Positions 22,377 to 42,523 of a stretch of 53,049 bases of DNA are shown here, piece by piece (the stretch's first letter is position 1; each line of letters opens with the position of its first letter). This DNA is from Candidatus Doudnabacteria bacterium. Lineage in GTDB: Bacteria; Patescibacteriota; Doudnabacteria; UBA920. Made by a program: the position numbers and the translations under genes. The notes under the pieces were generated by a model, which worked only from the letters and a program-made list of their open reading frames with translations, was not told the origin of the DNA and ran no database searches. The stretch lies in the NCBI GenBank assembly GCA_031291995.1, contig JARLHZ010000001.1, forward strand, positions 1-53,049, given 5' to 3'.

Positions 22377-22419
22377 GCAATGTTGATAACCTAAGAATAA
22401 TAGATAAAAAAAATAAAAG

Positions 22420-22614: not shown

Positions 22615-22649
22615 AAACCTGCATTAATTAAGTACGTTTTTGAAATAAA

Positions 22650-23771: not shown

Positions 23772-23785
23772 ACCATTCAAAGCCA

Positions 23786-23864: not shown

Positions 23865-23872
23865 ACCAAATC

Positions 23873-23904
23873 AAAAACCGCCACCAATTAAGGTGACGGT
23901 TTTT
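23873..23904 (+). terminator. Terminator of the pilin-like gene
   Basis: AAAAACCG-C-CACC pairs with GGTG-A-CGGTTTTT over a 6-nt loop; a T-run follows on the plus strand. Confidence 0.75.
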
Positions 23905-23909
23905 GAAAT

Positions 23910-23949
23910 GATGACGAAAGGCAGGGATTGGACCTACAGTTTCGTCATC
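23910..23949 (-). terminator. Hairpin downstream of the 200-aa membrane-anchored protein gene
   Basis: A perfect 10-bp stem, GATGACGAAA (23910-23919) / TTTCGTCATC (23940-23949), lies about 110 bases past the stop at 24060. On the minus strand ATTTCAAAAACC follows, so it is a weak terminator candidate. Confidence 0.45.
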
Positions 23950-24059
23950 AAGGATCTCTCCCCGTTGCCGCTGGTGCGCGACATCGAAAAAAGATAACTT
24001 CATTGGTCAAGCGTCCCTCAAAGCGCGAGGGGAAAGCGGCGGCGCGGCAGCTGGGTCCA

Positions 24060-25377: not shown

Positions 25378-25393
25378 CTGTTTCTCCTTTTTT

Positions 25394-26026: not shown

Positions 26027-26043
26027 AAACTTGACCATCCTCC

Positions 26044-26307
26044 TTGTACAGTTTAATGTACAAATTCTTCCTGCCGGTGTAACCCGATACAGGGATCCCC
26101 GAAGGGATATCACCCACAAAGTTTTTAGGCTTTGCGATGAATAAAACCCGGTGAATTATTTATCGTTGTATCGTGGTGCAATATAACGATAAAAAATAAA
26201 TCCCGCACAGGGCAGGACTTAGAATATTCACCAGGTTTTGCCCACCACAAGCATAGCCCTGTACCGGAGCCGCCACTAATTAGCAAAGCGACTGGTACGG
26301 GGCAAAA
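26044..26307 (-). promoter_or_regulatory. Structured leader of the three-gene accessory operon
   Basis: Three nested or competing inverted repeats precede the operon. TTGTACA (26044-26050) / TGTACAA (26057-26063) abuts AAGGAGG. AAAACCcGGTGAAT (26143-26156) pairs with ATTCACCaGGTTTT (26226-26239), enclosing ATCGTT/AACGAT. TTTTGCCC (26236-26243) with GGGCAAAA (26300-26307) encloses GTACC/GGTAC. The second and third helices share four bases (26236-26239), so they exclude each other. No gene is supported in 26027-26345. Confidence 0.5.
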
Positions 26308-26345
26308 AACCATACTATTAAATTTTAACTTCCAATTATAACAAA

Positions 26346-26383
26346 AAAACCGCATTCTGTCAATAGTCAGATTTTGCGGTTTT
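26346..26383 (-). terminator. Terminator of the five-gene giant-protein operon
   Basis: AAAACCGCA (26346-26354) pairs with TGCGGTTTT (26375-26383), followed on the minus strand by TTTG. It lies 22 bases past the stop of the 56-aa gene at 26405. Confidence 0.7.
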
Positions 26384-26404
26384 GTTTGGTGTTTTTGGCT
26401 TGTC

Positions 26405-26575
26405 TTAAACTAATTTTACCCCAACTTTGTCGGCAATTTGCTTGGTCCATTGCTCTAAACGATCTATCCGCTGTTTTCCAGCTAACCGCTGGGCAAACCG
26501 TCCCATGTAATAATCGGCAATTTTTTTTATATCCCGGTCGCTCAAAGAATTAGTTTTGACTTGTTTAGTCTTCAT
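26405..26575 (-). CDS. Small 56-aa protein, last gene of the giant-protein operon
   Basis: An open frame of 56 codons from ATG at 26575 encodes MKTKQVKTNSLSDRDIKKI, then ADYYMGRFAQRLAGKQRIDR and a basic C-terminus ending VGVKLV. The protein is highly basic and helical with no membrane segment. Function not recognised. Its position between the 99-aa gene and a terminator, and its normal codon use, support it as a real gene. Confidence 0.6.
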   Translation of the reverse strand: MKTKQVKTNSLSDRDIKKIADYYMGRFAQRLAGKQRIDRLEQWTKQIADKVGVKLV

Positions 26576-26635
26576 AAATTAAATATAATCCTGCCGGAAA
26601 AGACTGTCAATCTTATGTACTTATTTGATAGAGTT

Positions 26636-26935
26636 TTACTTTAACTTAGCGCGGGCTTCTTCCATTTCAATATCATCCATTAGTTTTGAGGCATTAGAGT
26701 AAAAAGTAGAAGTCTCATCCTCTATTGAAGACAATTCCTGATTAAAATCCTTTACGGCAGAGTCTATTTGGGACTTGGCCTGTACCTGTGCCGCGGCTTT
26801 GGTTAAGATGGCCTGAATTTCTGGCTTTATCGCTTCCTCTCCTTCCGTCTCCAGGCGTTGAAGGAGCCCTTGTTTATCTAAATCAGAAATCGGCAACTTA
26901 ACTATCAATCCTTTTATTAGTTCATTAGTGGGCAT
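26636..26935 (-). CDS. Hypothetical 99-aa helical protein
   Basis: MPTNELIKGLIVKLPISDLD starts a segment resembling the N-terminus of DUF5663-type proteins (short helical bundle), then a predicted coiled coil (AAAQVQAKSQIDSAVKDF... to the KLK end). Cytosolic; function unknown. It lies 23 bases after the 310-aa gene in the same operon. Confidence 0.6.
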   Translation of the reverse strand: MPTNELIKGLIVKLPISDLDKQGLLQRLETEGEEAIKPEIQAILTKAAAQVQAKSQIDSAVKDFNQELSSIEDETSTFYSNASKLMDDIEMEEARAKLK

Positions 26936-26958
26936 ATTTTTATATTTAATATCTTAGA

Positions 26959-27891
26959 TTATGCGGCCTTATCAAGAACTCCTTCTTCGCCGGCCTCAGG
27001 CGTCTTCTGTCCCAATCCCGCCCGAGCCTCTCTGCCTGCGGCCTCATTTTGCTGTTGCTGTCGGGTTGTCCCGCCAACTTCTGTGCCTTTTATACTTATT
27101 GGAACCCCCGCCGCTTCAGCCTGACGGATTAAGATCATCAAATCGTCAGCATCAACGTTAACCGTTACCTTGGTTCCGCTTTCCGCTCGATGTTCATTCA
27201 AATCAGCCAAATTACCCTTTATATTTTCCCGACGTTGTTCAAAAGCCTTGGCATCACCTTCCAAGGTTTGGCTAAAAACCTGCCGTTCTCCTTCGGTACG
27301 CGGCATCACGTGCAATTGGGTCATGGTTTCTTTGGCCAAAGACATCCGGTTGCCCAAATTTTCCTGGGCTTTGGATATTTTGCCATTAATATAAGCCGGG
27401 GCTTTGTCCATGGCTGCGAATAAAGTTTCCATTTTACCGCTTTTAGTTTGCGCGGTTTCGGGAGCATTTAAATTTAAGGAAATTACGCGGTTATAATCGA
27501 CATTCCCTTTCATATTGGCCACCGACTGTTCCTTTTTGACAGCTTGGTCTGCGGCCTTGGCAACCCGGTTCTGCTCAGCCTGCTGTCCGCGCTCTTTCAT
27601 AGAAGTCGCCCATTTGTCCAAACGCGAGGAAATTGCCCCAAGCCATTTACTAACCTTTCCTTCCGTGATCTGAGCCTTTTGGGCAGCATTGGCTGCCATA
27701 TCTTTGGATAACCCTTCCAACCACTCCGCATTTTTTGTCCTAACCTCTGTCCCTACAAATTCATGCCCAAAAGATAAATTTTCCTGTGTGGCTTTAGATG
27801 AATCAAACTCCGCTTTTTTGTCCAGCTTCTGTCCCGCCAAAGCGCCCAAAGATTCTACAGGCGGTTTACTTTCCCTGTTCCAAAATGCCAT
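26959..27891 (-). CDS. Hypothetical 310-aa coiled-coil protein
   Basis: Soluble, charged protein starting MAFWNRESKPPVESLGALAG, with long helical stretches rich in Ala, Gln, Lys and Glu (residues ~60-230). A short beta/alpha element (KVTVNVDADDLMILIRQAEA, ~245-265) and an acidic disordered tail follow. No family recognised. It lacks a clear Shine-Dalgarno site, like its operon neighbours. Third from the end of the operon that starts at 35760. Confidence 0.6.
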   Translation of the reverse strand: MAFWNRESKPPVESLGALAGQKLDKKAEFDSSKATQENLSFGHEFVGTEVRTKNAEWLEGLSKDMAANAAQKAQITEGKVSKWLGAISSRLDKWATSMKERGQQAEQNRVAKAADQAVKKEQSVANMKGNVDYNRVISLNLNAPETAQTKSGKMETLFAAMDKAPAYINGKISKAQENLGNRMSLAKETMTQLHVMPRTEGERQVFSQTLEGDAKAFEQRRENIKGNLADLNEHRAESGTKVTVNVDADDLMILIRQAEAAGVPISIKGTEVGGTTRQQQQNEAAGREARAGLGQKTPEAGEEGVLDKAA

Positions 27892-27961
27892 AAATTTTAT
27901 AATTAATTAGTCTTCTTCCGGGGACTGGCCGGATGTTTAAATTTATAAATAAAAACTTAAA

Positions 27962-30280
27962 TTATTTCTTCTTTTTAACCGTTTTTTTACCGGCAGATTT
28001 TTTAGGCGCCTCTGCTTGCGCTTCCAACAATTCAAGATCCGCCGGGTCAATAACACCACGCGGCACGATGATCGATTTTTTTGTTTTAGCGGGGACTTTT
28101 TCTGCTCTGATCTTTATTACCTTCCGGTCTTTCCCCATAATGGGAGCCGCGGATTTCGCCTCGCCAATCCTGTTTTTAAGCTCCTCAACTACCAATTGCT
28201 CGGTCAGGCTGGGAAGGCCGCTATGGGCAAATAAGCCCTGAAACTTATAAACCGCCTGCTTTTTCCAGTCCGGAACTTTATCCCAGTCTTGGCCACCGGA
28301 TTTTTTACTATCCAAATAAACGGCTTTAAACAATTCCGCTTCAACCTTATTATGAAAACTTAAAGAATCATATAAGCTTTGGTAATCTACCTCAGCTCGT
28401 GTTTTCCCCAAAGTCAAACGGAAATTCGGGTTATTTTTTGTTTTAGATTTAATTAACTCAATATATGGATCAAAACTTAAGTGTTGACCTTTTTCCGCCC
28501 GGTCGATAAAAATGCCCGAAACCATTCGCCGCAATTCTTTGGCGGTTTGCAAAGAATCGATGACCTTATTGTCGCCAAAAGGCAAGTGTAAAATTCTGTC
28601 TTTGAGTTCTTCGCCATCAGCCTTGGCGCGCCGCCTGATTATTGCCACATCGACAAATTGCGCGCCGGTTCCAGCCTGAGTTCGCCTTTTGGCGACAAAA
28701 GTCCCGGGCCGCTTGTCGTCGGGATCCTGAAAAATAACATCCTGTTTTTGGTCAAAATATTTGAAATCGACGTAATTGACGTGTTTTTTGTTCTTGGCTT
28801 TCGCCTGAACTAACTCCAGTGCTACCCGCGCCGAGGTCCGAAAAATTTCCAGGTTGGAAATCGGACCTATTAAATCTTTCTTGCGCATATCATCAACTAC
28901 ACTCCTTGGCGTAAAGCCGGTTTCCAAACAAGCGGCCAGATAAACCATACCTTTGTCCTTTTCCGAAATTTGCAAAGCGTCAATTTTTTTCTGCAATCCC
29001 TTAAAGCCCAGTTTGGTTAAATTTAACCCTCTTACAAACTCTTTGGCTTCATCCAACAAATCTTTGGCCTTCTCGTTTGTCCGCGGTTCCCGATGTAACC
29101 TCTTGAATAGTGCCTGCTGAGCGGCCTCGGTAGCAATACTTTCGCCCATATCGCGCAAACGCAAACCCAAATTCTCAAAAATATAAATTACATCCTGATT
29201 TTTTATCTGAGCTTTGCCTCTTCCCCGATATTGCCTTCCCTGGCTAATTTTAAAGCCTGCATATCCATCTAATAATTCTTTAGTTTCCCCATTATCCACC
29301 CATTTTTGCGCTAATTTTAAAGCCCTTGAGGGAATGCCGGCAAAAAGGGATAAAATGTCCAAGGCTGTCTTGCGATCATTTTCGTCTGCAATTTTGCGAA
29401 TTTCCGCAAAAGGCATGGCGCGGTATTTTTCCACAACTGGCAACTGGCCTTCCTTTAGTAACTCCAAAACGACTTCTACCCGATCTTTGACTTCCGTTAA
29501 CGGATACTCGAACTGCCGACCGTCGATATAGAAAGCCAATTGGCTACCCTTACCCTTTTGCAAAGAATTATGCAGCGATACTTCTTTCGGATTTAAATCA
29601 AAATTATTATCTTTAAGCAACCCGGCAATTTCCTGCTCCACGCTCCCCGCCACAGGCCTTTCCCAAATTTGTTCTCCTGGTTCGTATCCCCATCCTGCCA
29701 ACAAGGCGGCTAAATCTTCATCCGATTCCCAGGTCAGACCTTGATGATGAACTCGGTTGAGTTGCTGATAATTATACCCTGTATAATTTCGAAACTCTTT
29801 TTCGTCGATTTCCAACGGCTTGCCGCTTCGATAACTATTATATTGTTCTGATAATGTCTCCGGAGAAAATTTAAGTTCTTCTTTTCGCCGCTCTTGCTCG
29901 TGACCAGGTGCAAATTTCAAAAAAGCCTCCCGATCCGCCTTCGGGATTACAAACCGAAAACTGCGGTGGAAAATTATTTCTTTACCTGTTTTAGGATCTT
30001 TTCCCGGGGCATCTATTTTAGCCACATAACGAACGCTTTCGTCAGGAAGAAGTTTTCCATTCTGATCGTGTAAATCAACGCTTGTAATATCAAAAAGCTT
30101 GGTTTGTTTTTGTTCAGAGGCCAATTTTTGACCCTTGGCATCCGGTGCTTTTCCTTCAGGCTGCTTTGAAGAAGCCAATTGATCATAGGCCTGATTAGCT
30201 TTCTCCACGTCGTCGTTTTGCTCCGATTCGGAGCTAACTGCCCCAGTAATTCTGGGGTCAAACTCTCCATGTTCACCCAT
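27962..30280 (-). CDS. Hypothetical 772-aa protein with basic tail
   Basis: No family recognised. A disordered acidic N-terminus (~1-60) is followed by a beta-rich segment (LFDITSVDLHDQNGKLLPDE..., ~65-135) and a helical central region (~200-470). After a basic segment (FVAKRRTQAGTGAQ, IIRRRAKADGEEL) the protein ends in a Lys-rich tail (APKKSAGKKTVKKKK). No signal peptide or membrane helix, so it is probably cytosolic; the tail suggests nucleic-acid or membrane-surface contact. It starts 11 bases after the giant gene ends. Confidence 0.65.
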   Translation of the reverse strand: MGEHGEFDPRITGAVSSESEQNDDVEKANQAYDQLASSKQPEGKAPDAKGQKLASEQKQTKLFDITSVDLHDQNGKLLPDESVRYVAKIDAPGKDPKTGKEIIFHRSFRFVIPKADREAFLKFAPGHEQERRKEELKFSPETLSEQYNSYRSGKPLEIDEKEFRNYTGYNYQQLNRVHHQGLTWESDEDLAALLAGWGYEPGEQIWERPVAGSVEQEIAGLLKDNNFDLNPKEVSLHNSLQKGKGSQLAFYIDGRQFEYPLTEVKDRVEVVLELLKEGQLPVVEKYRAMPFAEIRKIADENDRKTALDILSLFAGIPSRALKLAQKWVDNGETKELLDGYAGFKISQGRQYRGRGKAQIKNQDVIYIFENLGLRLRDMGESIATEAAQQALFKRLHREPRTNEKAKDLLDEAKEFVRGLNLTKLGFKGLQKKIDALQISEKDKGMVYLAACLETGFTPRSVVDDMRKKDLIGPISNLEIFRTSARVALELVQAKAKNKKHVNYVDFKYFDQKQDVIFQDPDDKRPGTFVAKRRTQAGTGAQFVDVAIIRRRAKADGEELKDRILHLPFGDNKVIDSLQTAKELRRMVSGIFIDRAEKGQHLSFDPYIELIKSKTKNNPNFRLTLGKTRAEVDYQSLYDSLSFHNKVEAELFKAVYLDSKKSGGQDWDKVPDWKKQAVYKFQGLFAHSGLPSLTEQLVVEELKNRIGEAKSAAPIMGKDRKVIKIRAEKVPAKTKKSIIVPRGVIDPADLELLEAQAEAPKKSAGKKTVKKKK

Positions 30281-30291
30281 ATGTTTTTATG

Positions 30292-33200
30292 TTATTTACT
30301 CCTTTTACGAGTCGCTGCTTTTTTTACCTTGCGCGAGGGTTTTTTAGCTGCGTCTACACGTCTAGCCCTTATCGCTGCCAAAAGATCCCTTGCACTTGTA
30401 GGCTTTAAATCTTCGGCAGATTCTGCCGAAGATACTCTTGGCCTCGTTGCCTCGAGCCCGCGCACTGGAGTACCAGTCGGTCTTAATTCACCCCCAGGTC
30501 TCCCGGGAACACGCGGGCCGCCTATTGGCGCAGGACCGCGGCGTATTTCCGTAATTCCCTGGGCTTTTCGCAAAGTAGCTCGCAAATACTCTTCTCGACT
30601 GCCGGAAGCGGAAACCTGCTTGTCAAAATTTTTCCTAGGTTCCGGTTTTAAAGACGGCTTTAAGTCAAAAACTCGTTCTAAAACCTTTAACGGTTCAATC
30701 TGATATTTAGCGGCTAAAGCGTTTATATCGGCATCGCGAAGATTGTTCGCGCCAACTTTGTCCCGAAGTTCTTTGTCGTTAATCTCCAAGGCCCAGCGCT
30801 CAAATAAATCTGGGCTTGCGCCTTTCCAAATTGCTAACAAACCGGGGTTTTTTTCCGCCATCAACCTAGCCAACTGCGCCAAAGTCCTGCGCGTATTGCT
30901 GGAACCTTGCATATACTTGGCCTGTTCTTTAGCCTTCTCAATTTCCCCATAAGCTCCTTCAGCTTCAAACAAACCCGGCACTAAAGTTTTTGGCTTTATG
31001 CCGCTCGACTCCTGAAACTGCAATCCGGCATTCCGATAAATAAATTCCAAGGGGTTTTGCTCAAATTTCTGTTTCGCCTCAACTTTAATCTTATGCTCTA
31101 GTTCAGCCTTATCATTCTCCCGCTTTTGTTCCGCATCATTCAGTCTTTCTCTTTTTGGTTTCCAAGATTCAAATTTTTTCTTAAGATGGTCAGTTTTTAA
31201 AATCTTGATTCCCCTTACCGTTATTATTTTGCGGTCTTTGTCTTTGATCTTTATTTCACCTATTTCATAATCTTTGTATTTTACAAACTTATTGCTGTTT
31301 ACATTTGTAATAACATTTCCATGGTCATCTATTGGATCGCCGTCATCATTAGTCTCAATGCCAGCCAAACCCAGCCAAGCCAAAGCGCGCTGGACTTGAG
31401 GAGAGTCTTCGGTTACTCTCCACTTATTCATCATCCAATAAAATTCCTGCTGTAGTCTGTCTGTATTAATGGTCTCCTGATCACCTTGAATCTGCTCCGC
31501 AAAAGATTTTCCGTATACATTCATTTCTCCCCATTCATCCCAAGCCTTTGCCACCGGCTTCCCCTTTTGATACATCCCCAACTCGCGCCTGGGATCTGTT
31601 TCCAGCCACGCTTTATTTTCATAGGCAAAAGGGTTTCTGTCTTTTGGCAAAACGTTATCCACCCCACGACGCCCCGTTCGGATCATGTCCCCTAATTGGG
31701 TGTCTGCTCCGGCATCTTTTTCAACCCGAGCCCCGCCCACAGCGCAATAAGCGCTGGCTCTTAAAGCAGTATTTCTTCCTTGCGTTATAACCTGCTTCTC
31801 GCCTGTTTTCCGATTTACTACAACATAACCGGTTTCAGGATCCACATAAGGGGTCTCCGTACCTTTATACCCATACCTGTTTTGCGCATCCAAAAATTGG
31901 TCAAACCGCGTTGTAAGGAAAAAATTCGGCCATTTACTATAAGTTTCGTTATCATGGTCTATCCTGCCTACCATTCCATCGTACCTAACTCCGTTTCCAG
32001 CTGCCGCTTCGGACTCATTTCTGTCAAAATCATCCATTAAGTACCTCAAATACTTATCGGACATATCTCGTAAGTCCGCATCATTGGTCAATATAAGAAA
32101 GTCTTTATTAACTGGCGACTTTCGGTTTCGCGCTCTAACGCAAGCGGCGTCATATAGATACTTAATAATCCAACCCCACATAGGACGTTTCTCAAATTCT
32201 TTTTTCATGACCCTGATTTTCATTTCAGGATGTTTTTCCTGATATTGTCTGATGACTTCTTCCGTATCGTATGCTTCCGGATTCCCATTCCGAACTCGTT
32301 CGTCCGCACCGGGTAACATTGAGAGAGCTTCGCGGCGATCTTTGGGATGATTCAAAAATAAAATCAGCTCAAATTCCTCGGGTTTAACTGAACCGTTTGC
32401 AATCTGTTTCCTATATTGCTCTAATGTATTTTCTATAACTTTACCTTCTCCTAAATCAAATACCGGAATACAAGCTACGGCCCGGCATTCAGCAACCATC
32501 CCCTCTTTCATACCAGGTTGTTTGAGAATACTTTCAAAATCCTTTTTGTAATACGCGTTGCTTTCTATCCCATTTCTCATATACCAATCCATTTCCCTTT
32601 CAAAATCTAATTGCGCTTGCGGATTATCTCGCAAAATTGGCGACATTCGTTCCCTATATTCGTGCCTCAACTCTTCGGATTCTCTTCCGTAACCACCGTA
32701 AGGCGGTGGGGGCTCTATTGTCCTCTCCATTTCTTCCAGTCCCGGTCTGGTGTAAGCCGGAATTATTAACGGCGGTTCGGTGATGTAGTCGGTTGGGTTT
32801 TCCGGGCGGCCGAGGACGGTTACTGGAACTTCGTGATGGCCGGGAATGAAATGATCGGAGCCAGGTGTGTGGATTATATGGTCGGCGGTCGCGCCAAAAT
32901 CGTGGCCTTGAGCCGTGGCAAAAACATGTCCGTCAACCCGGAACTCCATAAACCTGAACGGCAGGTGGCCGTCGTGTAGCATTGATTTGTCGGTAAACGT
33001 AGAAGAAATTTCTGAAGGAAATGACAGTTTGCCGTTGTGTGCGACTTCGTAAAGCATGCTTAAGCCGGCATGATTAGCCGCGTCAGTCGGAATTATTGCC
33101 ACCTGGATATGATCCTGGAGAGTTTTGTTTTGAGCCCACTCAACTAATTTTGGACCCATATGTACCAACATTTGATCGTAAGTACCGTCAGGATTCATCC

Positions 33201-35415
33201 CGAATTCCGGATCAAAGTGGTAATCTCCATTTCCATCCACATGGACATGTTCATGCAAATTTTTAAACAAGTTTGCCATGACCATATTGGCATCCATAGA
33301 AACCGTTCCGTCTTTGGCCTGCTCCAAAAACAATTCCTGCTGTTTGCCTTCATACTCTATTTCTTTATTGTGGATGGTACTGAAGTGTTTACCCGGATTG
33401 TCATGAGAGTCCACCCGGTGGTGTTTGGCCAAGCCGGGAAATTTTTCTTTGAGCTCTGCCAAAGTTAAATGGTGCCCGTGCTCAACCATGTCGGATCCGG
33501 AAAGGGCATGGTGCTGATCCGGGGCGCCGCCATGGCCTAAGTCCTCATGCGGGCCAAAATGATGATCAGCCAAATATTTATGGGCTTCCGGCGTTAAACT
33601 TCCGTCCGGTTTTAGTTTAAAGGAATCGGTAATTGCCCGGCTTTGGTCAAAAATTTTAAATCCGCCATGCCCGTCCGGGCGCATTTCATAACCTTCGGGT
33701 AACTTAAAACCATGGCCGGCAACTGTTTGTTCGTGCAAATTTATAAAACGCGTATTATGGCCGGATTGCATGTCTACTATACGCCTTCTTAAGCCCTCAA
33801 CCAACGTAACGTGCTCTCCGGGAGAATGCGCCGAAGATTGGCCAACAAAACCATGCAAATCGTGGCTGACCAAGGCATGAGCCTCCTGCATTACCATACC
33901 AATGGCCCCGCCGATTAAGGCGCCTTTGCCCGCGGCTATCCAAACCTTCCGAGTTTTCAATTTCTTAAAAGTCTTAACCTGATTTTTAATTCCTTTTTCT
34001 CCATGCCACAACTCCTGGAACGATTCATCTTTTTTGGTTCGAATTTCAGTTTCAAAATCTCTTCCATTTGCAACAGCCCATTTATTCAGTTCAGTCCTGG
34101 CCTTATAAACAACCATATTTAATCTGGCTCGTTCCTGTTCTACTTTGGTTACATCCGAAAAACTAATTAAGTCTACTTTTTTGGCTTTGTTTGAACGCCA
34201 GAATTGCCACATATGCGTCTTTGGATTCTCTACGATTCCATCATCGGATATCTGAATGCGCGCTTTAATGTCACCCACAGCGCTTAAGGCTTCGTTATAT
34301 TCGGTTTCGGTTAAATCTTTAGCTTCACGACCTGCTAATTTATCAAAAAGACTTGTTTTAACCCCCTTTTCTAACTCTGTGGCGCTTTTGGTCTGAATAC
34401 GCGAAGTCTCAAGCTCATTTCTTCTTTCCGCCAGTGCCGGATTCTTAACTTCTTTGCCCTGGGCTTTTTCGCGGGCATGTTGCATTCTTTCCACTTCCAA
34501 TTTCCGGCTTTCCCTGCCCGCGGCCACAGCGCCGCTGGCCGCCATACCCAACCCAAAAACCGAAGCCGCTCTCTTGACGCTGCCCTGGACTACTTTGGTA
34601 AAGATTGTATTTACAGACGCAACCGCTACGGCAACTGTTTTTTCATTAAATATCCCTCCCGTCCACCTCTGGATTTTATCTACTATATTATCTATAGCGT
34701 TAAATTGCGCTTCAGTGCGCACGCCGGCCTTGGCTTTACCAACAACAACGTCAAAATCTAAATCCGTTTCCCGCAATGCCGCCTCATGGTCTACCGCCTG
34801 TTCAACCTGGTGCTTTACCTCCTTGGCAATATCAAATAAGTTATCGGCATACATTTTACCCTTACCCAAAGCGTCGGGTTTCAATCCGTGAAGTTCAGCA
34901 AAAATTCTATTTTTGTAAGCGTGAAAACCACCCTCGTCCAAATTCCCGCGGGCGTATTCCCGTATCAGAGTTTGAATCCTGGCTTTAATTACCTGCTCCT
35001 GATGGCTGTTGCCTAACCGGTCAATTGTTTCGCCGGCGCCTTTATGAATAAACTGATCTTCCAACTCAGGGCTAACCATATAGCGGGCAGTTATTGCGCC
35101 CGCTTCCTTATTGTGCGCTTCCTTTTTGTCTTTGCCCTCGTCGTGCGCGTAAAGATTGCCGCTCTCTATGATTTCTTTTTCCGCTTTATACCTCTCCCTG
35201 GTTTGATTGATTTCACTGCGCTTCCAAACGGTTTTGCCGAAATTTTTGACCCGATTCCAAAAACCCTTGGGTTTCTCCGAGCTTTCGGTAGATTTGTCCA
35301 AGGCGACGTCTTTGGATTTTGCCGTTACGGCATCGCTTATATCGGCAATTACGAACTTCTTTTTCCCGCCGCTTATATCTTGTATTTCTTCGGGGTTAAA
35401 GCCAAGTCGTTCCAT
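30292..35415 (-). CDS. Giant 1707-aa protein with a GT-A-like glycosyltransferase region
   Basis: Residues 1-270 are charged and helical. Small hydrophobic stretches occur at ~275-300 (ASVFGLGMAASGAVAAGR) and ~490-510 (GKGALIGGAIGMVMQEA). A His-rich region spans ~600-740 (HHFGPHEDLGHGG, HGHHLTLAELKEK). Residues ~975-1290 look like a family-2-type GT-A domain: VACIPVFDLGEG, FELILFLNHP, LILTNDADLRD (DxD-like, ~1108) and TALRASAYCAVGG. The C-terminus ends in a basic tail (PSRKVKKAATRKRSK). No signal peptide. The activity and acceptor are unknown; very large proteins are known in CPR. It follows a DUF5663 gene and precedes the 772-aa gene with 11-bp spacing. Confidence 0.7.
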   Translation of the reverse strand: MERLGFNPEEIQDISGGKKKFVIADISDAVTAKSKDVALDKSTESSEKPKGFWNRVKNFGKTVWKRSEINQTRERYKAEKEIIESGNLYAHDEGKDKKEAHNKEAGAITARYMVSPELEDQFIHKGAGETIDRLGNSHQEQVIKARIQTLIREYARGNLDEGGFHAYKNRIFAELHGLKPDALGKGKMYADNLFDIAKEVKHQVEQAVDHEAALRETDLDFDVVVGKAKAGVRTEAQFNAIDNIVDKIQRWTGGIFNEKTVAVAVASVNTIFTKVVQGSVKRAASVFGLGMAASGAVAAGRESRKLEVERMQHAREKAQGKEVKNPALAERRNELETSRIQTKSATELEKGVKTSLFDKLAGREAKDLTETEYNEALSAVGDIKARIQISDDGIVENPKTHMWQFWRSNKAKKVDLISFSDVTKVEQERARLNMVVYKARTELNKWAVANGRDFETEIRTKKDESFQELWHGEKGIKNQVKTFKKLKTRKVWIAAGKGALIGGAIGMVMQEAHALVSHDLHGFVGQSSAHSPGEHVTLVEGLRRRIVDMQSGHNTRFINLHEQTVAGHGFKLPEGYEMRPDGHGGFKIFDQSRAITDSFKLKPDGSLTPEAHKYLADHHFGPHEDLGHGGAPDQHHALSGSDMVEHGHHLTLAELKEKFPGLAKHHRVDSHDNPGKHFSTIHNKEIEYEGKQQELFLEQAKDGTVSMDANMVMANLFKNLHEHVHVDGNGDYHFDPEFGMNPDGTYDQMLVHMGPKLVEWAQNKTLQDHIQVAIIPTDAANHAGLSMLYEVAHNGKLSFPSEISSTFTDKSMLHDGHLPFRFMEFRVDGHVFATAQGHDFGATADHIIHTPGSDHFIPGHHEVPVTVLGRPENPTDYITEPPLIIPAYTRPGLEEMERTIEPPPPYGGYGRESEELRHEYRERMSPILRDNPQAQLDFEREMDWYMRNGIESNAYYKKDFESILKQPGMKEGMVAECRAVACIPVFDLGEGKVIENTLEQYRKQIANGSVKPEEFELILFLNHPKDRREALSMLPGADERVRNGNPEAYDTEEVIRQYQEKHPEMKIRVMKKEFEKRPMWGWIIKYLYDAACVRARNRKSPVNKDFLILTNDADLRDMSDKYLRYLMDDFDRNESEAAAGNGVRYDGMVGRIDHDNETYSKWPNFFLTTRFDQFLDAQNRYGYKGTETPYVDPETGYVVVNRKTGEKQVITQGRNTALRASAYCAVGGARVEKDAGADTQLGDMIRTGRRGVDNVLPKDRNPFAYENKAWLETDPRRELGMYQKGKPVAKAWDEWGEMNVYGKSFAEQIQGDQETINTDRLQQEFYWMMNKWRVTEDSPQVQRALAWLGLAGIETNDDGDPIDDHGNVITNVNSNKFVKYKDYEIGEIKIKDKDRKIITVRGIKILKTDHLKKKFESWKPKRERLNDAEQKRENDKAELEHKIKVEAKQKFEQNPLEFIYRNAGLQFQESSGIKPKTLVPGLFEAEGAYGEIEKAKEQAKYMQGSSNTRRTLAQLARLMAEKNPGLLAIWKGASPDLFERWALEINDKELRDKVGANNLRDADINALAAKYQIEPLKVLERVFDLKPSLKPEPRKNFDKQVSASGSREEYLRATLRKAQGITEIRRGPAPIGGPRVPGRPGGELRPTGTPVRGLEATRPRVSSAESAEDLKPTSARDLLAAIRARRVDAAKKPSRKVKKAATRKRSK

Positions 35416-35433
35416 AAAAAGGATGTTGCCTAA

Positions 35434-35760
35434 TTATTTTATTCCAAGATAGGTATTTCTAAAATTCGTCAGGGCTTCGGCCGTGAGCTCCTGTAAGTTT
35501 GGAATTTGCCGGTTCGTAAACTCTTCTATGGCCTGCTGATTGCCGCCGTCCAAAAGTTTGTCAAACTCTTCCAGTTTTTCCGGTGGAATATTGGCCATTA
35601 TAGTGGCGTTTATGATATCTTCAGCCCGGTCGTAAACGTCGGCCTTAATTTGCTCCATTACGTCAGGCTCAACTTCAAAATTTTTGGCCGCAACCAAATT
35701 ATCCACGAAAGTCCTTAATCCTTGCTCGGCTTGATTGTTTTTTGTTTCTAAATTAGCCAT
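35434..35760 (-). CDS. DUF5663-type small protein
   Basis: 108 residues from ATG at 35760 (MANLETKNNQAEQGL). The stretch VMEQIKADVYDRAEDIINA, then MANIPPEKLEEFDKLLDGG, fits the DUF5663 pattern seen repeatedly in CPR genomes. Function unknown; probably a helical adaptor. First gene of the operon that includes the giant protein; a good promoter lies directly upstream. A TTG at 35793 would extend the frame but lies at the transcription start. Confidence 0.7.
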   Translation of the reverse strand: MANLETKNNQAEQGLRTFVDNLVAAKNFEVEPDVMEQIKADVYDRAEDIINATIMANIPPEKLEEFDKLLDGGNQQAIEEFTNRQIPNLQELTAEALTNFRNTYLGIK

Positions 35761-35793
35761 ATTTTCGATGTTTTTATAAATCTCTCTGAGCAA

Positions 35794-35822
35794 ATTATAG
35801 CATAAATATCCAAAAAGACAAA
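35794..35822 (-). promoter_or_regulatory. Promoter of the giant-protein operon
   Basis: On the minus strand, TTGTCT (35822-35817), 17 nt or 16 nt depending on register, then a perfect TATAAT (35799-35794). Transcription would start near 35787, about 27 nt before the DUF5663 start. Confidence 0.7.
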
Positions 35823-35827
35823 AAAAA

Positions 35828-35884
35828 GTAGGAACCGGCCGAAGCTGGTCCCTACAAGGTAGCGATGGATCGCTACAAATTGCG
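35828..35884. repeat. Two adjacent palindromes upstream of the giant-protein operon
   Basis: GTAGGAACCGGC-CGAA-GCTGGTCCCTAC (35828-35855, two mismatches) is followed by GTAGCGAT-GG-ATCGCTAC (35859-35876). The first resembles the palindrome inside der (49164-49191). The string ATCGCTACAAATTGCGC (35869-35885) recurs at 52955-52970 with one base missing. Confidence 0.75.
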
Positions 35885-35896
35885 CAACACTTGGTT

Positions 35897-37042
35897 TCAG
35901 TCCTGGTGATTCGTTTCCACCGGCACCTTTTCAGGCGTGGCCGGAGTTTGATGCCGGAACCAACCGCAGGGTGGGATAGGAATGTGGGTTACGGCACTGG
36001 CAATGAGGGTACCGCCACAGACGATAATTGCCGTCCGAACCGGATGACACACCACTTGCACGACCGTAATCCGCGCGAAAATGTTGTGGTGAACCTCGCA
36101 GTACCCCGCCTCCTCTTCAGGAGGCTGGAGCGTAAACGGAGTCTCACCCTCCCAAGTCCGTTTGCAAACAGCGGTGGAACCGGCACCAGCGACCCGAGCT
36201 TCGAACGTGTGGAGGCCGGGACCATTAGGCATAGGGCCTGTGGTATAGGGCTGGCCGTCCACAAACACGGAAATGTCGCCACTGGCCATAACCGAAAATC
36301 CGGTTTCCGGGCTTCCGGTAGGAGGTAGGCACCATGGTCCGGCAGGCGGAACTTCTATCGGTGGCGCGATGGGTGCTGGCGGCTGAGCGGGCGGGCGTTT
36401 TTGACGGTTCTTTACGACCACATTGACCGTTTCTCCCGGCTCGACCGTCACTCGTGGCAGCGACACATCGTACTGCTCCCAAACTACGGAAGCAATCCGC
36501 TCGGAAATCTCGTAGTCACCCGCGGGAACGTCTACCGTAAGCTCGCCGTTGGCGTCCGGCTCCCCGCAAATGGTGCCGGCACAGAGTGTAAACACTCCGG
36601 TCGGGACAGGAATCTGTTTGCCCTCGGTATTGAAGGCCTCCTTTAAAAAGTGGACCTTCCCTGTAGGCGGAGCTGGCGGCGGAGCGGGAGGCTTGCAGCC
36701 TTCGCATTCCGCGCCGTTAAGGCATTCCTCAAGCACAACTTCGGTGCCATCGGAATTTATCCAACCAATGGTGCCGGCCGGAACCTTGTATGCGACGTTG
36801 GCGATGCGGACAGCTCCGCCAGCTTCGACCACGCAGTACTGCATTTTCCGCAGCACTTCGTTACCGGTAAAAACGTAGCGGGTATTCAGTCCCCGTTCCG
36901 CCTTTACGGTTTCCAGTTCGGCGCCACAGCGACGCATTGCCGTCGGGCTGTCTGCCCGGGGCGTGAGTAAACGAGTCTTGCCGTCCTCCTGCCCGAAGGC
37001 GATTGACACGGCTCCCAACAACAACAGCAGCGTTTTCATCAT
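35897..37042 (-). CDS. Secreted protein with Cna-B/SpaA-like domain
   Basis: The signal peptide MMKTLLLLLGAVSIAFG gives an exported ~365-residue protein. The region ~125-220 (VHFLKEAFNTEGKQIPV..., LTVDVPAGDYEIS, VEPGETVNVVVKN) resembles a prealbumin-like Cna-B/SpaA domain. It is flanked by Pro-rich linkers (PPAPPPAPPTG, RPPAQPPAPIAPP) and followed by a second beta domain; a late hydrophobic stretch (VRTAIIVCGGTLIASAVTHI, ~335-355) may be a membrane anchor. The start at 37042 follows GAGGA at good spacing and is buried in a long hairpin. Codon usage is G+C-rich relative to the neighbouring giant operon. Confidence 0.7.
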   Translation of the reverse strand: MMKTLLLLLGAVSIAFGQEDGKTRLLTPRADSPTAMRRCGAELETVKAERGLNTRYVFTGNEVLRKMQYCVVEAGGAVRIANVAYKVPAGTIGWINSDGTEVVLEECLNGAECEGCKPPAPPPAPPTGKVHFLKEAFNTEGKQIPVPTGVFTLCAGTICGEPDANGELTVDVPAGDYEISERIASVVWEQYDVSLPRVTVEPGETVNVVVKNRQKRPPAQPPAPIAPPIEVPPAGPWCLPPTGSPETGFSVMASGDISVFVDGQPYTTGPMPNGPGLHTFEARVAGAGSTAVCKRTWEGETPFTLQPPEEEAGYCEVHHNIFARITVVQVVCHPVRTAIIVCGGTLIASAVTHIPIPPCGWFRHQTPATPEKVPVETNHQD

Positions 37043-37045
37043 AAA

Positions 37046-37108
37046 AAGTATCCTCAGTGCAAACCAAAACGCGTAATAGTCCGCGCTTAAGTTTGCACTA
37101 AGGTACTT
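37046..37108 (-). promoter_or_regulatory. Leader hairpin that covers the ribosome-binding site of the Cna-B-like gene
   Basis: On the minus strand, AAGTACCTTAGTGCAAAC (37108-37091) pairs with GTTTGCACTGAGGATACTT (37064-37046): 17 Watson-Crick pairs, one U-G pair and one bulged A. The 3' arm contains the Shine-Dalgarno GAGGA and ends 3 bases before the start codon. The 26-nt loop contains CGCG...CGCG. This would hold translation off unless opened. Confidence 0.65.
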
Positions 37109-37260
37109 AAACCCAAGTAAATTGCTAATCCTCCTTATTTTGATTGAATTATCAACCAACGAAAAACCAAATCTTTCGTCGAAGGACAATTATCTAAAAA
37201 CTAATGATTAACTCGTAACTTATTATTTATCACTTCTAACTACTTTGAATCGGAGAGGGA

Positions 37261-37352
37261 GGAGACTGGCATGCGTCTCCCCCCCTTCCTATAAGCCCCG
37301 TACCCGTCGTGGTACTGGGGCCGCCCGCCTTGCCGTATTCACGGGAGGCGGG
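37261..37352 (-). terminator. Cluster of three hairpins between the two secreted-protein genes
   Basis: In transcription order: AGGCGGG/CCCGCCT (37352-37324), CCCC-A-GTACC/GGTACGGGG (37320-37296) and GGAGAC/GTCTCC (37280-37261). They begin 7 bases after the 683-aa gene stops. No long T-run follows, so they may be a 3' stabiliser, a factor-dependent terminator or repeat DNA. The rest of the 37043-37359 gap holds only the leader of the next gene. Confidence 0.5.
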
Positions 37353-37359
37353 ATTAGCG

Positions 37360-39411
37360 TTACTTCTTTTTGGCGTCTTTGGGCTTGGCTGTTTTCTTGG
37401 GCTGACCGAACTCGTCAGCCTGGCAAGAAACACCGGCGGCCTTGCAGGCGTCTTCCAAGCTCTTCTCCCATGATGCCGCCGTAGCCTTGGGGAGTTTCTT
37501 CCCCGCGGCGTCCAGCTTCAGTATGCTTGCAGTGGTCTTCGCGTCTGCGGCCGCAACCTGTTTGGCCTTGCCAGCGTCGATTTTGGCCTCATCGGCTGCA
37601 GTCTGTGCGGACTGCACGCCAGCCGCCAATGGAGCGAACTTCTCGCCAACCTTAGAGTCGACAATCGCGTTCACTCGCTCTTCGGTCACACCAGCATTGC
37701 CACCGGCATTGGCCGCAATCTTAGCCTCCAGCTCTTCAGCCTTGGCCTTGACCGCGTCAGCCTGTGCCTGCGCCGCGTCCGAGCGGGTCTTAAGAGCCAC
37801 AAAGCGATCATCGTGGAAAACACTGTCGATAATCGCATTGCGGAGCGCTGAGCCAGCCTGCGCCGATGTACCTCTGCCATTGCCCCACGCCTGCGCGCGG
37901 AACTTGGCCACACAGACAGGATCGGGAGAAGCGCCGCAAGCGGCACCTTCCAAAACTAGACGAGTTTTCGCGTCCGCTCCGCCAGAAGAGACGCCGCCGA
38001 CGGACTCGCGAGCCAAATCGATCGCCGCATTCAACTGCACGGCCACCGGAGCATCGTCGATGACGAGCATGGACATGTCCACGCCGCCAACTTTAATGCG
38101 CGCGCGACCTCGGGTGGGGGGCGTAAAGGTAAATGAATGAGCGTTCCCCGTGACCGGAACAGAAGTCCCGTTCAGGTACACCACCTGCACCGCGCCGTTA
38201 CCGGCACAGACCATGGTGTTGCTCACGCCGACCACCGCCAACGGAATTGCGTTGTTGGCTGAGGGGGTAGCCCCGCGCGGAGCCGTTGCGGGATTATAGC
38301 AGCGAGGCGCGGCATAGGCGGCGTGGCCGAAAGACAACAAAATGCAGCCAGCAAATACCGCGACGACACCGAGGCCTTTTTTTCCAGAAGCGGGCTTTGC
38401 CTCATACAAATGGACTTGTACCGATCCCGACTTGGTCGGATCGGCGACCGAGGTCGCAGTGATGACAACCGTAGTCGGATGCCCATCGTGAGTGGGTGGC
38501 GCGGTAAATGTACCACCTTTAATCTCGCCGGCATCCGCCGGAGAAATCGTCCAAGTTACCGCCGGGTTTACCGCGGGTGGTCCGCTGACCCTGGCTTTAT
38601 ACGTGATGCTCTGGCCAGGGTAGAGGATTGCGTTGTCAACGGAGTCGTTGACGTAAACGTTGATTGGCGCTTCGAACATACGCCTTACTATCGACTCGAC
38701 TTCCTCGTCTTTAGTAACTGTCAGCGGCCGAACGGCTTCCTTGATCTGGGTCAAAGTGGGGACCGTGAGGTACATTTGCACTGATGCCGCAATCTCATCT
38801 AAAGTCGGCTGATTGCGTCGCATGATGTCCACCAATTCCGTCTCAGTGAATCCCCTTGGAGCCGCTGGCATTGCGGTCTTGACGCGATCGACAATGTCGC
38901 CGATCGGCGGAACCGTAGGGGTCGGAGGAAGGTCGTCAATTACCGCTTCAACAATCTCCTCAACTGTGGGTAACTTCGGCATGACATTCTTGGCGATCGC
39001 TTCGACTTCATCACGAGTTACGCCGCTGGCCTTGATCTTCTTCGTCCGCCAGATAAGGATGATCAACAAAATCACCAAAACTAGGGCTGAAGTAAAGTTT
39101 GCCGTTTGAAGCCACGTCGGGTTCCCCGGGGTCAAGCCACCGTTGAGCTGCACTACCGGCTTCGTTTCTTTAGCCGGCGGCTGCTTAGGGTTGCCGGTAG
39201 CCGCTTGCGCCGGAGGTGCCTGCTGCTGGGCCGGAGCTTGAACTGCCGGCTGAGCCGGGGGTTGCGCGGGCTGGACCGCGGGAGCCGGAGGAGCCGGCGG
39301 AGCGTAATCCAGTTGCGCGTATACGGGCCCAACACTGAGTGCTAACAGCACCAGCGCGAAGGCCAATAAGCCGAAAAAACTTCGGCGGAAACTTCCACCC
39401 ATGTTCGACAT
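37360..39411 (-). CDS. Large exported Ala/Pro-rich protein with Ig-like and coiled-coil regions
   Basis: 683 residues. Signal-like segment (FFGLLAFALVLLALSVGPVYAQ), a Pro/Ala/Gln linker (~33-85), a transmembrane helix (~103-122, ALVLVILLIILIW), then short helical repeats of the form LPT-x-x-E-I-V-E-A-V (~135-240). A bacterial Ig-like domain follows (~250-335, NVYVNDSVDNAILYPGQSITY...). A second hydrophobic, signal-like stretch (GLGVVAVFAGCILLSFGHAA, ~345-365), a further beta domain, and an Ala-rich coiled coil (~545-640) lead to a Lys-rich end. No family recognised. GGAG lies 8 nt before the ATG; the leader has alternative hairpins. Confidence 0.65.
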   Translation of the reverse strand: MSNMGGSFRRSFFGLLAFALVLLALSVGPVYAQLDYAPPAPPAPAVQPAQPPAQPAVQAPAQQQAPPAQAATGNPKQPPAKETKPVVQLNGGLTPGNPTWLQTANFTSALVLVILLIILIWRTKKIKASGVTRDEVEAIAKNVMPKLPTVEEIVEAVIDDLPPTPTVPPIGDIVDRVKTAMPAAPRGFTETELVDIMRRNQPTLDEIAASVQMYLTVPTLTQIKEAVRPLTVTKDEEVESIVRRMFEAPINVYVNDSVDNAILYPGQSITYKARVSGPPAVNPAVTWTISPADAGEIKGGTFTAPPTHDGHPTTVVITATSVADPTKSGSVQVHLYEAKPASGKKGLGVVAVFAGCILLSFGHAAYAAPRCYNPATAPRGATPSANNAIPLAVVGVSNTMVCAGNGAVQVVYLNGTSVPVTGNAHSFTFTPPTRGRARIKVGGVDMSMLVIDDAPVAVQLNAAIDLARESVGGVSSGGADAKTRLVLEGAACGASPDPVCVAKFRAQAWGNGRGTSAQAGSALRNAIIDSVFHDDRFVALKTRSDAAQAQADAVKAKAEELEAKIAANAGGNAGVTEERVNAIVDSKVGEKFAPLAAGVQSAQTAADEAKIDAGKAKQVAAADAKTTASILKLDAAGKKLPKATAASWEKSLEDACKAAGVSCQADEFGQPKKTAKPKDAKKK

Positions 39412-39430
39412 CTTTTTATCTCCAGAACTA

Positions 39431-39523
39431 CATCATACGGATACCATCTGCTGCGATGAAACTCGGGTATCCTATGCGGTAAATAACCAATCAAAAAATT
39501 AGTTAAAAGCCGCATAGGATACC
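39431..39523 (-). promoter_or_regulatory. Alternative-pairing leader of the 683-aa gene
   Basis: In transcript order, segment A GGTATCCTATGCGG (39523-39510), segment B CCGCATAGGATACC (39479-39466) and segment C GGTATCCGTATG (39448-39437). B is perfectly complementary to A (14 bp) and can alternatively pair with C (7 bp, a bulge, then 4 bp). C ends about 9 bases before the GGAG ribosome-binding site. This is the layout of a two-state RNA switch. Confidence 0.55.
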
Positions 39524-39684
39524 TCCAAAAAATAAGTAACGTTTATTCCTCCTGGTTATTTAAAAGAACAGTTGAGCCCAAAAATTTCCGGGCTCATGTT
39601 TACCTACTATAATAGGCAATAATTAGACCGGAAAACAAATTATTTTTTAACTAACTATTATATCAAAAAACCCGCCATTTGTCA

Positions 39685-39700
39685 ATGTTAGCGGATTTTA
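39685..39700. repeat. Left target-site duplication of the IS
   Basis: ATGTTAGCGGATTTTA, 16 bp, identical to 41114-41129 immediately beyond the other end of the element. Confidence 0.85.
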
Positions 39701-41113
39701 TGTCATTTAAAATTCAAAACTGGACTGGTTTAAAGCCCAAAACTGGACTTTTAGCTTAATTCCGCCGCTTAAGATAACATATACGGTTAGCCTTAATTAA
39801 TAGAAAGGAGCTGTATATGAGCCAGGTTCACAAGCGTTTGGATGATGAAATCGTCCGCAGAATCTTAAGCCAGTATGATTTAAAACAATTAATTTTGCCG
39901 ATAGCTTTAGCCCAGCTCGGATTAAAGCGCAGTCAATTCTTTGCCCTGCTGGCAGAATTTCGGGAGAACACCGCGGATTTTTCCGTGAGCTACAAACGTG
40001 AGGCCAGAAAATTAATTACCGATGCGGCGGAAGAAAAAATTAAAGCCGAGTTGTTAAAAGAAAAAGTTATGATTGAAGACAAGACTTTACCGATTAAGTG
40101 GTACAACTATTCGGCGGTGCGGGACACCCTAAAAGAAAAACATAATATTACAGTATCAGTGCCAAGCATTATCAGCAGAGCTAAAGCGCAGGGCTTCTAC
40201 ATCCCAAGGCCGGAAAAGAAAAAACACAACCATGAAGTTATCACCAATTACCCAGGAGAGTTAATCCAGCACGACGCAAGCCATCATCGCTGGAGTCCGT
40301 ATGTGGAAGCGCCGTGGACGGGAATTACTTCCATCGATGATTACAGCCGCGTATTGTTGTTCGGCGACCTGTTTGAACACGAAAGCAGCTGGGCGCATAT
40401 TTCCTCAATAGAATCAATATGTTTAACCTATGGCGTTCCGGCTAAATATTACCTTGACCAACATAGGATATTCCGCTTCGTTAGGAACAGAGATGCTCAA
40501 AGCCGGTTTTTTAATTATCAGAAGTTCACCGATGAAGTCGATCCGCAGTTTAAACAGGTGCAGAAAGAATTAAACATAGATTCAACTTATGCCTTAAGTC
40601 CGCAGGCTAAGGGTAAAATTGAGAGGCCGTATCAGTGGCTGCAGGATAGAGTTGTCAGGCGCTGCTCCAAAGACCAAGTCAGCAAGTTTACCGAGGTCAG
40701 GGAAATATTCAGGGACGAAGTCAGCCGCTACAACAATCGGCAGGTGCATTCCACCACCAAGGAAATTCCTATGATGAGATTTGAGGCGGCCTTAAACCAA
40801 AACAGGACAATGTTTAGGCCCTTTACTATTCCCAAACCGTTTGAATCCACCAAGGATATATTTTGTTTAAGAACTACGAGGACTGTTAATCACTACCAGA
40901 AAATTTCTTTACACAACTTAATGTTTGACGTTCCAAGTGTCAGACCCGGGCAGGAAGTCAATATCCGCATCCGCCCAGAGCCGGAGACCGGCAACGCGGA
41001 AATCAGAATCTGGCATAACGAGAGCCTGGCGGCGACCAAGGTTATTCTCTTAAAAGATCTGCCTCAAGTCCATCTTTGAGTTTTAAGAAGTCCAGTTTTG
41101 AGTTTTTGTTAAC
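39701..41113 (+). mobile_element. Complete IS1202-like (ISNCY group) insertion sequence
   Basis: 1413 bp with imperfect 26-bp terminal inverted repeats (21 of 26 match) that begin TGT and end ACA and share the inner block TCAAAACTGGACT. It carries one transposase gene. A 16-bp direct repeat, ATGTTAGCGGATTTTA, flanks it. Family placement rests on the transposase motifs, the TGT ends and the long target duplication; IS481 is the alternative. It lies at the ftsA-proximal edge of the island. Confidence 0.9.
39817..41079 (+). CDS. DDE transposase of the IS1202-like element
   Basis: 420 residues. An N-terminal helix-turn-helix region (~1-120) is followed by an RNase-H-like DDE core: LIQHDASHHRW (first Asp, ~156), KYYLDQHRIF (second Asp, ~214) and SPQAKGKIERPYQWLQDRV (Glu, ~275). 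This arrangement matches IS1202/ISNCY and IS481 transposases. GAAAGGAGC precedes the ATG at good spacing. The gene is intact, and a second copy's 3' end is at 2-106. Confidence 0.93.
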   Translation: MSQVHKRLDDEIVRRILSQYDLKQLILPIALAQLGLKRSQFFALLAEFRENTADFSVSYKREARKLITDAAEEKIKAELLKEKVMIEDKTLPIKWYNYSAVRDTLKEKHNITVSVPSIISRAKAQGFYIPRPEKKKHNHEVITNYPGELIQHDASHHRWSPYVEAPWTGITSIDDYSRVLLFGDLFEHESSWAHISSIESICLTYGVPAKYYLDQHRIFRFVRNRDAQSRFFNYQKFTDEVDPQFKQVQKELNIDSTYALSPQAKGKIERPYQWLQDRVVRRCSKDQVSKFTEVREIFRDEVSRYNNRQVHSTTKEIPMMRFEAALNQNRTMFRPFTIPKPFESTKDIFCLRTTRTVNHYQKISLHNLMFDVPSVRPGQEVNIRIRPEPETGNAEIRIWHNESLAATKVILLKDLPQVHL

Positions 41114-41129
41114 ATGTTAGCGGATTTTA
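41114..41129. repeat. Right target-site duplication of the IS
   Basis: ATGTTAGCGGATTTTA, identical to 39685-39700. Confidence 0.85.
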
Positions 41130-41163
41130 AATTTATTATTTTATTTGGCTTATTTAAAACAAA

Positions 41164-41275
41164 TTATGGCAAAAAAGATTTCAGTCCACCTTCGCCTAGG
41201 CTATGGCGGACTTCAACTATTAGGGGAGAAAAGATTTTAGCCCGCCTTCGCCGAGGCTATGGCGGACTTCAACTA
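41164..41275. repeat. Two tandem 56-bp copies of the ftsA 3' end plus palindrome
   Basis: Units 41164-41219 and 41220-41275 continue in register with the true ftsA end at 41276. On the minus strand each starts with codons for LKSFLP-stop, followed by a near-identical 32-base tail that contains the palindrome CCGCCATAGCCTCGGCGAAGG. The three coding ends differ at several bases but every change is synonymous. The extra units lie downstream of the real stop and are untranslated. Confidence 0.9.
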
Positions 41276-42523
41276 TTATGGAAGAAATGATTTCAGCCAC
41301 TTCCGGACTTTGGCTACGTTTTGGTTGGACATTATGCCTTTTATGACGCTGCCGAGCTGTTGGCTGCCGCCGGCGTTATATTTGCCGCCCCACAGGACAA
41401 GGCCCGCGGCTGTGGCAAAACTCGGGTCGTTGACGCGGTCTATTATAGTCACAATATTTTGCGGCCAGCCTAAAAGGCTTGGCAGGCGCAAATGCTTTTT
41501 GGAAAATTCCACCACGCCCGGCAGTTTGGCGCCGCCGCCTGTAAGCACTATTCCGGCCGGCAATTTGCCGTCGCGGGAAATTTTTTTCAGTTCGTTGTTG
41601 ACCATGCGGAAAATTTCTTCCTGCCTGGCCTCAATAATTTCCACCACATAACTGCGCAGGGTGGACTGTTCCTCGGTCTTGTCGATTTGCGACAGGTCTA
41701 TTTCTTCGTCTTTATCAACCGCTTTGGGATCGCAATGCCCGTACTGCAGTTTCACTTTTTCCGCGGTCTCAATACTGCACCTCAGGCCAATGGCAATGTC
41801 GTTGGTAATATGCATACTGCCCACGGGCAATACCGAGGTATGGAGCAGGTCACCCTCTTCGTACACCGCAATGCTGGTCGTCCCGGCTCCCAAATCCACC
41901 AAACACACGCCCAAATCTTTTTGGCGTTTGGTTAACACGGCCTCGGCCGCCGCGCAGGGCGCCAAAACCAAATCGCCGACTTCCAGCCCCGCCTGCAGGG
42001 CCGAACGGGTCAGGTTGCGGACAAACGGCAGGCCGGCCTGGACAATAATCGTATCAACTTCCAGCCGGATGCCGCTCATACCCAAGGGGTCGCGAATGCC
42101 GGCCTGGCCGTCCAGGGTAAAAGTTTTGGGGAAAACGTGGAGTACTTCCTTATTTTGGGGAATAGATATAGCCTGGCTGGCGTCCACGCAGCGGACAATG
42201 TCGCTTTCGGTAATTTCCCCGTCGGCGCGGGACACCGCAATGACGCCGTGTGATTGCTGGGAAGAAATATGGTTGCCGCCCACGGAAATATTGGCCATAG
42301 TTACCGGAACGCCGGTCATGCGCTCGGCTTTTTCCAAAGCGCTGCTTATGCCGGAAACGGCTTCTTCTATGTCGGTAATTACGCCGCGGCGCATACCGGA
42401 AGAGGCCACTTCGCTGGCGCCAATAACGCTGAGCTTGCCGCTTTGCTGGTCAAGCTTAGCCTGCACCACGCGGATACTGCTGGTTCCGATATCCACGCCG
42501 ACAATGTATGTTTCCTTGCTCAT
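41276..42523 (-). CDS. ftsA: Cell-division protein FtsA
   Basis: Actin-like membrane tether of FtsZ. Phosphate-1 motif VGVDIGTSSIRVVQAKL, the 1C domain (~85-165), phosphate-2 VCLVDLGAGTTSIAVYE, and adenosine motif GIVLTGGGAKLPGV are intact. The C-terminal amphipathic membrane-targeting helix is VAKVRKWLKSFLP. 415 residues, typical. Its normal partner ftsZ is ~19 kb downstream on the same strand, with the island between. Two extra tandem copies of the 3' end follow the stop codon. Confidence 0.97.
   Translation of the reverse strand: MSKETYIVGVDIGTSSIRVVQAKLDQQSGKLSVIGASEVASSGMRRGVITDIEEAVSGISSALEKAERMTGVPVTMANISVGGNHISSQQSHGVIAVSRADGEITESDIVRCVDASQAISIPQNKEVLHVFPKTFTLDGQAGIRDPLGMSGIRLEVDTIIVQAGLPFVRNLTRSALQAGLEVGDLVLAPCAAAEAVLTKRQKDLGVCLVDLGAGTTSIAVYEEGDLLHTSVLPVGSMHITNDIAIGLRCSIETAEKVKLQYGHCDPKAVDKDEEIDLSQIDKTEEQSTLRSYVVEIIEARQEEIFRMVNNELKKISRDGKLPAGIVLTGGGAKLPGVVEFSKKHLRLPSLLGWPQNIVTIIDRVNDPSFATAAGLVLWGGKYNAGGSQQLGSVIKGIMSNQNVAKVRKWLKSFLP

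Follow-up and report, generated by a model that had tools for sequence, protein, structure and literature searches.

The prophage e14 in the icd gene of E. coli supplies a new icd 3' end, and the displaced old piece, 163 bp long, is found downstream (PMC6379469). Islands of the SGI1 type insert at the 3' end of trmE, where tandem insertions have been reported (PMC3285670). Homology-facilitated illegitimate recombination joins DNA through one homologous and one non-homologous junction (PMC3240628). Here we describe an array of three ftsA ends in a Candidatus Doudnabacteria genome (assembly GCA_031291995.1), located in the window, that is, the whole stretch of 53,049 nucleotides of contig JARLHZ010000001.1 that was analysed. 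On balance, we favour the view that serial replacement by inserted DNA built up the array from displaced ftsA 3' ends, because the ends differ only silently, second ftsA ends are found in a genome of the same genus and in Daviesbacteria, and the gap between ftsA and ftsZ is variable.

The gene itself (41276–42523, minus strand) encodes a protein of 415 aa ending in VAKVRKWLKSFLP-stop. Its identity as FtsA is secure, judging from the match to TIGR01174 (389.6 bits), and the PF14450 and PF02491 domains are also found. Nearly all of 30 relatives, with overall identities as low as ~61%, share the KSFLP end, suggesting strong selection on this peptide in the translated copy. On the minus strand, LKSFLP-stop is read three times within 41164–41296, with an exact period of 56 bp. 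The translated ftsA end, F1 (CTGAAATCATTTCTTCCATAA, 41276–41296), is followed by tail 1 (41241–41275), which consists of the leader TAGTTGAA and a hairpin. Next are the untranslated second end, F2 (CTAAAATCTTTTCTCCCCTAA, 41220–41240), and tail 2 (41185–41219), which has 32 of its 35 bases in common with tail 1. The untranslated third end, F3 (CTGAAATCTTTTTTGCCATAA, 41164–41184), closes the array and gives way to unrelated DNA (TTTGTTTTAAATAAGCC...). Thus, the order is F1-tail-F2-tail-F3, with only two 35-base tails, behind F1 and F2. Tandem Repeats Finder (TRF) assigns the array a score of 203, with units 88% alike. F1 alone lies in the ftsA frame. Pairwise, F1, F2 and F3 differ at 4, 3 and 4 of their 21 bases, and every difference is silent. 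A reading made earlier from the sequence only had reported the three ends with their strict period, the translation of the first alone and the purely silent differences, and it was accurate on all of these; its near-identical tail in each unit holds for copies 1 and 2, but not for copy 3. When the ftsA end was compared with the next 400 bases, the nucleotide match was better than in 300 of 300 shuffles, and exact searching as well as a search with 161 bases found the full unit at no second place in the genome, which argues against a chance repeat of the ftsA end.

An ISNCY/IS481-like insertion sequence with inverted ends, recognized by its transposase match and repeats, lies nearby on the plus strand (39701–41113; transposase gene, 39817–41079). 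It adjoins a perfect extended sigma-70-like promoter (TTGACA-17-TATAAT, minus strand, 39685–39657). The insertion sequence has relatives elsewhere in the genome and is flanked by a 16-bp direct repeat of its own (ATGTTAGCGGATTTTA, 39685–39700 and 41114–41129), the right copy of which stops 34 bases short of F3. On these grounds it was rejected as the cause of the array and appears to be a separate, later event.

We compared the individual ftsA ends with the sequence that follows them, which yielded a parallel case. In a genome of the same genus (G003, locus L117), ftsA runs to position 1333, an AbiEii-like gene (PF08843) occupies 1521–2255, and a second ftsA end, SMNKILNSQSVTRVRKWLKSFLP-stop (2264–2335), lies behind this gene, ~1 kb downstream of ftsA. 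The second end is a diverged stretch of 22 codons with the terminal sequence MNKILNSQSVTRVRKWLKSFLP-stop. Over the last 12 codons, including the stop, six silent and zero replacing changes separate it from the true end; upstream of these, the differences resemble those between the ftsA ends of separate species. A profile built without this copy recovers it at E 1.5e-10, and a profile search of 49 genomes of the order identified it as the only clear extra ftsA end. We also scanned contigs for two KSFLP-stops within ~60 bases. The scan gave one biological match, in Daviesbacteria (L155), and a Spirochaetaceae match (L154) was discarded as a simple repeat. In L155, the ftsA end GTGAAATCGTTTTTACCGTAA is followed by 23 bases, GTTAAGTCCTTCTTGCCCTAG and the ftsZ start region, and the two VKSFLP-stops differ at seven positions, all silent. 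Because matches were required to contain the peptide, the silence of the differences is not independent evidence, whereas the presence of a second copy is; the chance expectation for such matches at ftsA ends is ~0.005 by our own rough estimate from base composition. In the same locus (L155:6851–6913), the last codons of the first ftsA end form a perfect 14-bp palindrome with the bases of the insert that follow the stop. Read by eye, the last ftsA codons (TTGCC) resemble a -35 box for the next gene in both genomes (L117:1324–1355; L155:6905–6935), with TATAAT or TATATT 17 bases past TTGCC. The 22-codon end of G003 and the recoded end of L155 support the earlier suggestion that the copies are once-functional ftsA ends.

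The region behind ftsA is a variable slot that reaches to ftsZ (21162–22376, minus strand; PF00091, PF12327) and measures 18.9 kb in the window (22377–41275). Within the family, the gap between the two genes ranges from 0.1 to 19 kb (L099–L118): it is 14.1 kb in G001, 7.6 kb in G007 and 0.2 kb in the same-genus G005 and other family members, and the genes are adjacent in several relatives, one of them from the same genus. The contents are mostly unrelated between genomes and include giant proteins, T4SS_pilin proteins and toxin-antitoxin or defence genes (AbiEii, HepT, BrnT and PIN toxins). In the window, an open reading frame of 1707 aa (30292–35415) has no match in Pfam or NCBIfam, and giant open reading frames weakly similar to it occupy the same slot in several relatives. 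Genome size (0.5–1.5 Mb in the relatives), gene content and the FtsA ending in common with Daviesbacteria suggest that the host is a member of the candidate phyla radiation (Patescibacteria). That an island begins at the array, as had been proposed, is a fair description of this variable slot. We tentatively suggest, as a possibility of wider reach, that bacteria with small genomes, of the candidate-phyla type, receive insertions time and again at the ftsA 3' end, where cargo, including toxin and defence genes, may repeatedly replace the last codons of this essential division gene without an integrase in the slot, leaving displaced ends that can be counted.

From the anatomy of the array, its silent differences and the parallel cases we infer the displacement, its order and the route of insertion as follows. 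Incoming DNA with its own, silently diverged last ftsA codons would join the chromosome at the ftsA end. The incoming end would become the translated one, and the previous end would stay untranslated beyond the insert. F3 is probably the oldest, native end, since it borders on the former downstream DNA. F2 and then F1 would have arrived or taken the first place, each with a tail of leader and hairpin. The inserts would amount to only 35 bases here, either through loss of cargo or because the tail is everything that came. With two tails this similar, it may be that the same DNA was inserted again at the second step, or that a unit was duplicated in place, with recombination. Candidate routes of entry are a site-specific recombinase acting in trans, or a homologous joint within ftsA combined with a non-homologous one. 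The window encodes DprA, which makes DNA uptake plausible, although it proves nothing. Counting against displacement, the slot has no recombinase, no viral contig carries an ftsA end and no donor was found for any ftsA-end copy.

A simpler explanation is plain tandem duplication, by slippage or recombination, of the ftsA end with its hairpin tail, followed by decay, the silent pattern being luck. The strict 56-bp period and the 88% likeness of the copies are consistent with it, as are the hairpins in the unit, since hairpins favour slippage. A simple-slippage example exists at the ftsA end of L019 (G021), where an 11-bp perfect tandem duplication, TTTCTGCCATA, has identical bases and lacks silent differences. 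However, untranslated copies would be expected to decay regardless of codons, whereas the peptide is kept in both F2 and F3. We simulated this process, keeping F1 translated and treating F2 and F3 as dead, and scored the 990 runs that had exactly the observed numbers of differences. The peptide was intact in both dead copies in four of them (~0.4%). The probability that one change is silent is ~31%, and codon comparison places two to three changes necessarily in the dead F2 and up to two in F3. Between F1 and F2, ~4 of 6 to 7 silent sites differ, versus 3 of 35 positions in the tails (Fisher p 0.005 to 0.009), whereas over all sites F1 and F2 are no more different than the tails (Fisher p 0.41). 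The silent-change argument concerns few sites, the copies in the window being only 21 bases long, and a pattern spotted after the fact. In addition, selection for pairing may act on the tail hairpins, which would slow the divergence of the tails and weaken their comparison with silent sites. The ortholog-like 22-codon copy of G003 is left without an account. Overall, simple duplication followed by decay fits the array poorly, as the sequence-only reading had argued from the preserved peptide, and we regard it as somewhat unlikely. A microhomology between the hairpin arms and the ftsA codons KVRKW was considered as the seed of the 56-bp duplication and dropped, because equal scores were reached by 10 to 35% of 63-base stretches taken at random from the window.

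A special case of displacement, which we consider doubtful, is that the ends are scars of an integrase-encoding element that used the ftsA end as its attachment site and then lost its cargo. The geometry is that of e14 in icd (PMC6379469), with a displaced second gene 3' end downstream in the form of F2, F3 and the longer G003 copy; SGI1 offers a known case of tandem insertion at the 3' end of a gene, trmE (PMC3285670), and the ftsA slot is full of variable genes. By contrast, an integrase gene beside one end and a common core at both junctions, as in the icd case, are not found. Tyrosine and serine recombinase families (Phage_integrase, resolvase) are absent from the 80 slot open reading frames of the family, and the integrases of the source genome are on contigs C31 and C18, with none on the contig of the window. 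The proposed core, TTGAAGTCCGCCATAGCC, has an exact match inside the array only, and neither exact nor 161-base searches gave a second junction, so a matching core at the far junction was rejected. Viral contigs were searched as well, and none has a KW.KSFLP-stop end or the tail. In our search of the open-access literature, no paper described ftsA as an attachment site. Thus, the integrase-driven element put forward in the sequence-only reading is not borne out: relatives do have variable cargo at their ftsA 3' ends, but the tyrosine recombinase expected with it is missing from the slot, and the core expected at the other junction is absent elsewhere.

Turnover within the array requires no foreign DNA: after one duplication, recombination would repeatedly rotate copies into the translated place, exposing each of them to selection for a time. 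This would account for silent-only differences next to near-identical tails in a 56-bp array. However, such exchange should homogenise the ftsA ends like the tails, yet the ends differ more at silent sites, and G003 and L155, both of which lack an array, are not covered. We consider this quite improbable.

Each tail contains a 28-base imperfect palindrome, GTCCGCC...GGYGGRC, with a stable fold: hairpin 1 (GTCCGCCATAGCCTCGGCGAAGGCGGGC, 41240–41267, minus strand) and hairpin 2 (GTCCGCCATAGCCTAGGCGAAGGTGGAC, 41184–41211, minus strand). Both have folding energies of -18 to -19 kcal/mol and precede AAATCTTTT; the whole array has a z of -5.3, and the arm changes between the hairpins both retain pairing, through G-U. 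Sequences of the REP type are recognized as palindromes of 20–40 bases, present in many copies between genes of a genome that encodes a REP-associated tyrosine transposase. The palindrome of the tail was found in 30 of 145 genomes of relatives, in intergenic positions, with 1 to 7 close matches each (at most 3 mismatches), and further copies lie between other genes of the source genome. Across the order, the 28-base hairpin GTCCGCCRWAGCYTNGGCGAAGGYGGAC is dispersed (L043–L090), and it turns up rarely in further families of the phylum. Genes of the Y1_Tnp (RAYT-type) family are present in 8 of 8 genomes of the genus. From its form and its dispersal, the hairpin is probably a REP-like palindrome of this lineage. 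Its copy number is below that of classical REPs, and the spread of REPs by TnpA-REP (RAYT) carries no gene ends. LKSFLP adjoins none of the other hairpin copies listed, the flanks of which are unrelated, and among the 85,000 species genomes scanned there was no other case of KSFLP-stop followed by the hairpin. Thus, the ftsA ends are not passengers of a dispersed unit, and the idea that LKSFLP is part of one was dropped. Dispersal of the whole unit with the same coding bits would speak against captured ftsA ends; it is the hairpin core of the tail that is dispersed, and not the coding bits. In another reading, the hairpins are the reason why the unit persists behind ftsA: they would terminate transcription twice over or stabilise the messenger, with the LKSFLP part carried along and its T-rich strand serving as U-tract. 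This would agree with the folding and the preserved pairing, but a terminator scan gives neither hairpin and the silent-only codon changes are left unexplained, making this very unlikely.

If serial displacement is correct, the silent differences amount to a modest fossil record, in uncultivated bacteria, of how the end of an essential division gene was exchanged. The ftsA–ftsZ interval would then be a cargo slot, refilled with toxin-antitoxin, defence and giant-protein genes without a resident integrase, and a short repeat behind a gene could mark insertion rather than slippage. Among the known processes, homology-facilitated illegitimate recombination would be expected to produce a new gene end together with cargo and the displaced former end, and DprA in the window is in line with it; it does not usually yield stacks of short units, however, and for this group it is a candidate route. 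SGI1 at trmE has in common with the array a gene 3' end as insertion point and tandem insertion, whereas the ftsA array lacks the 42-kb element, the integrase and a conserved attachment core at a second junction. Compared with e14, the array has neither integrase nor prophage genes, its pieces are 21 bases long (66 in G003), and three ends are stacked. Judged by its sequence, the array thus falls outside the class of e14 and SGI1 insertions, for want of an integrase and a second core, yet it would work as they do, with a new core-gene 3' end in place and the old end displaced downstream, as for e14 (and phage 21) in icd.
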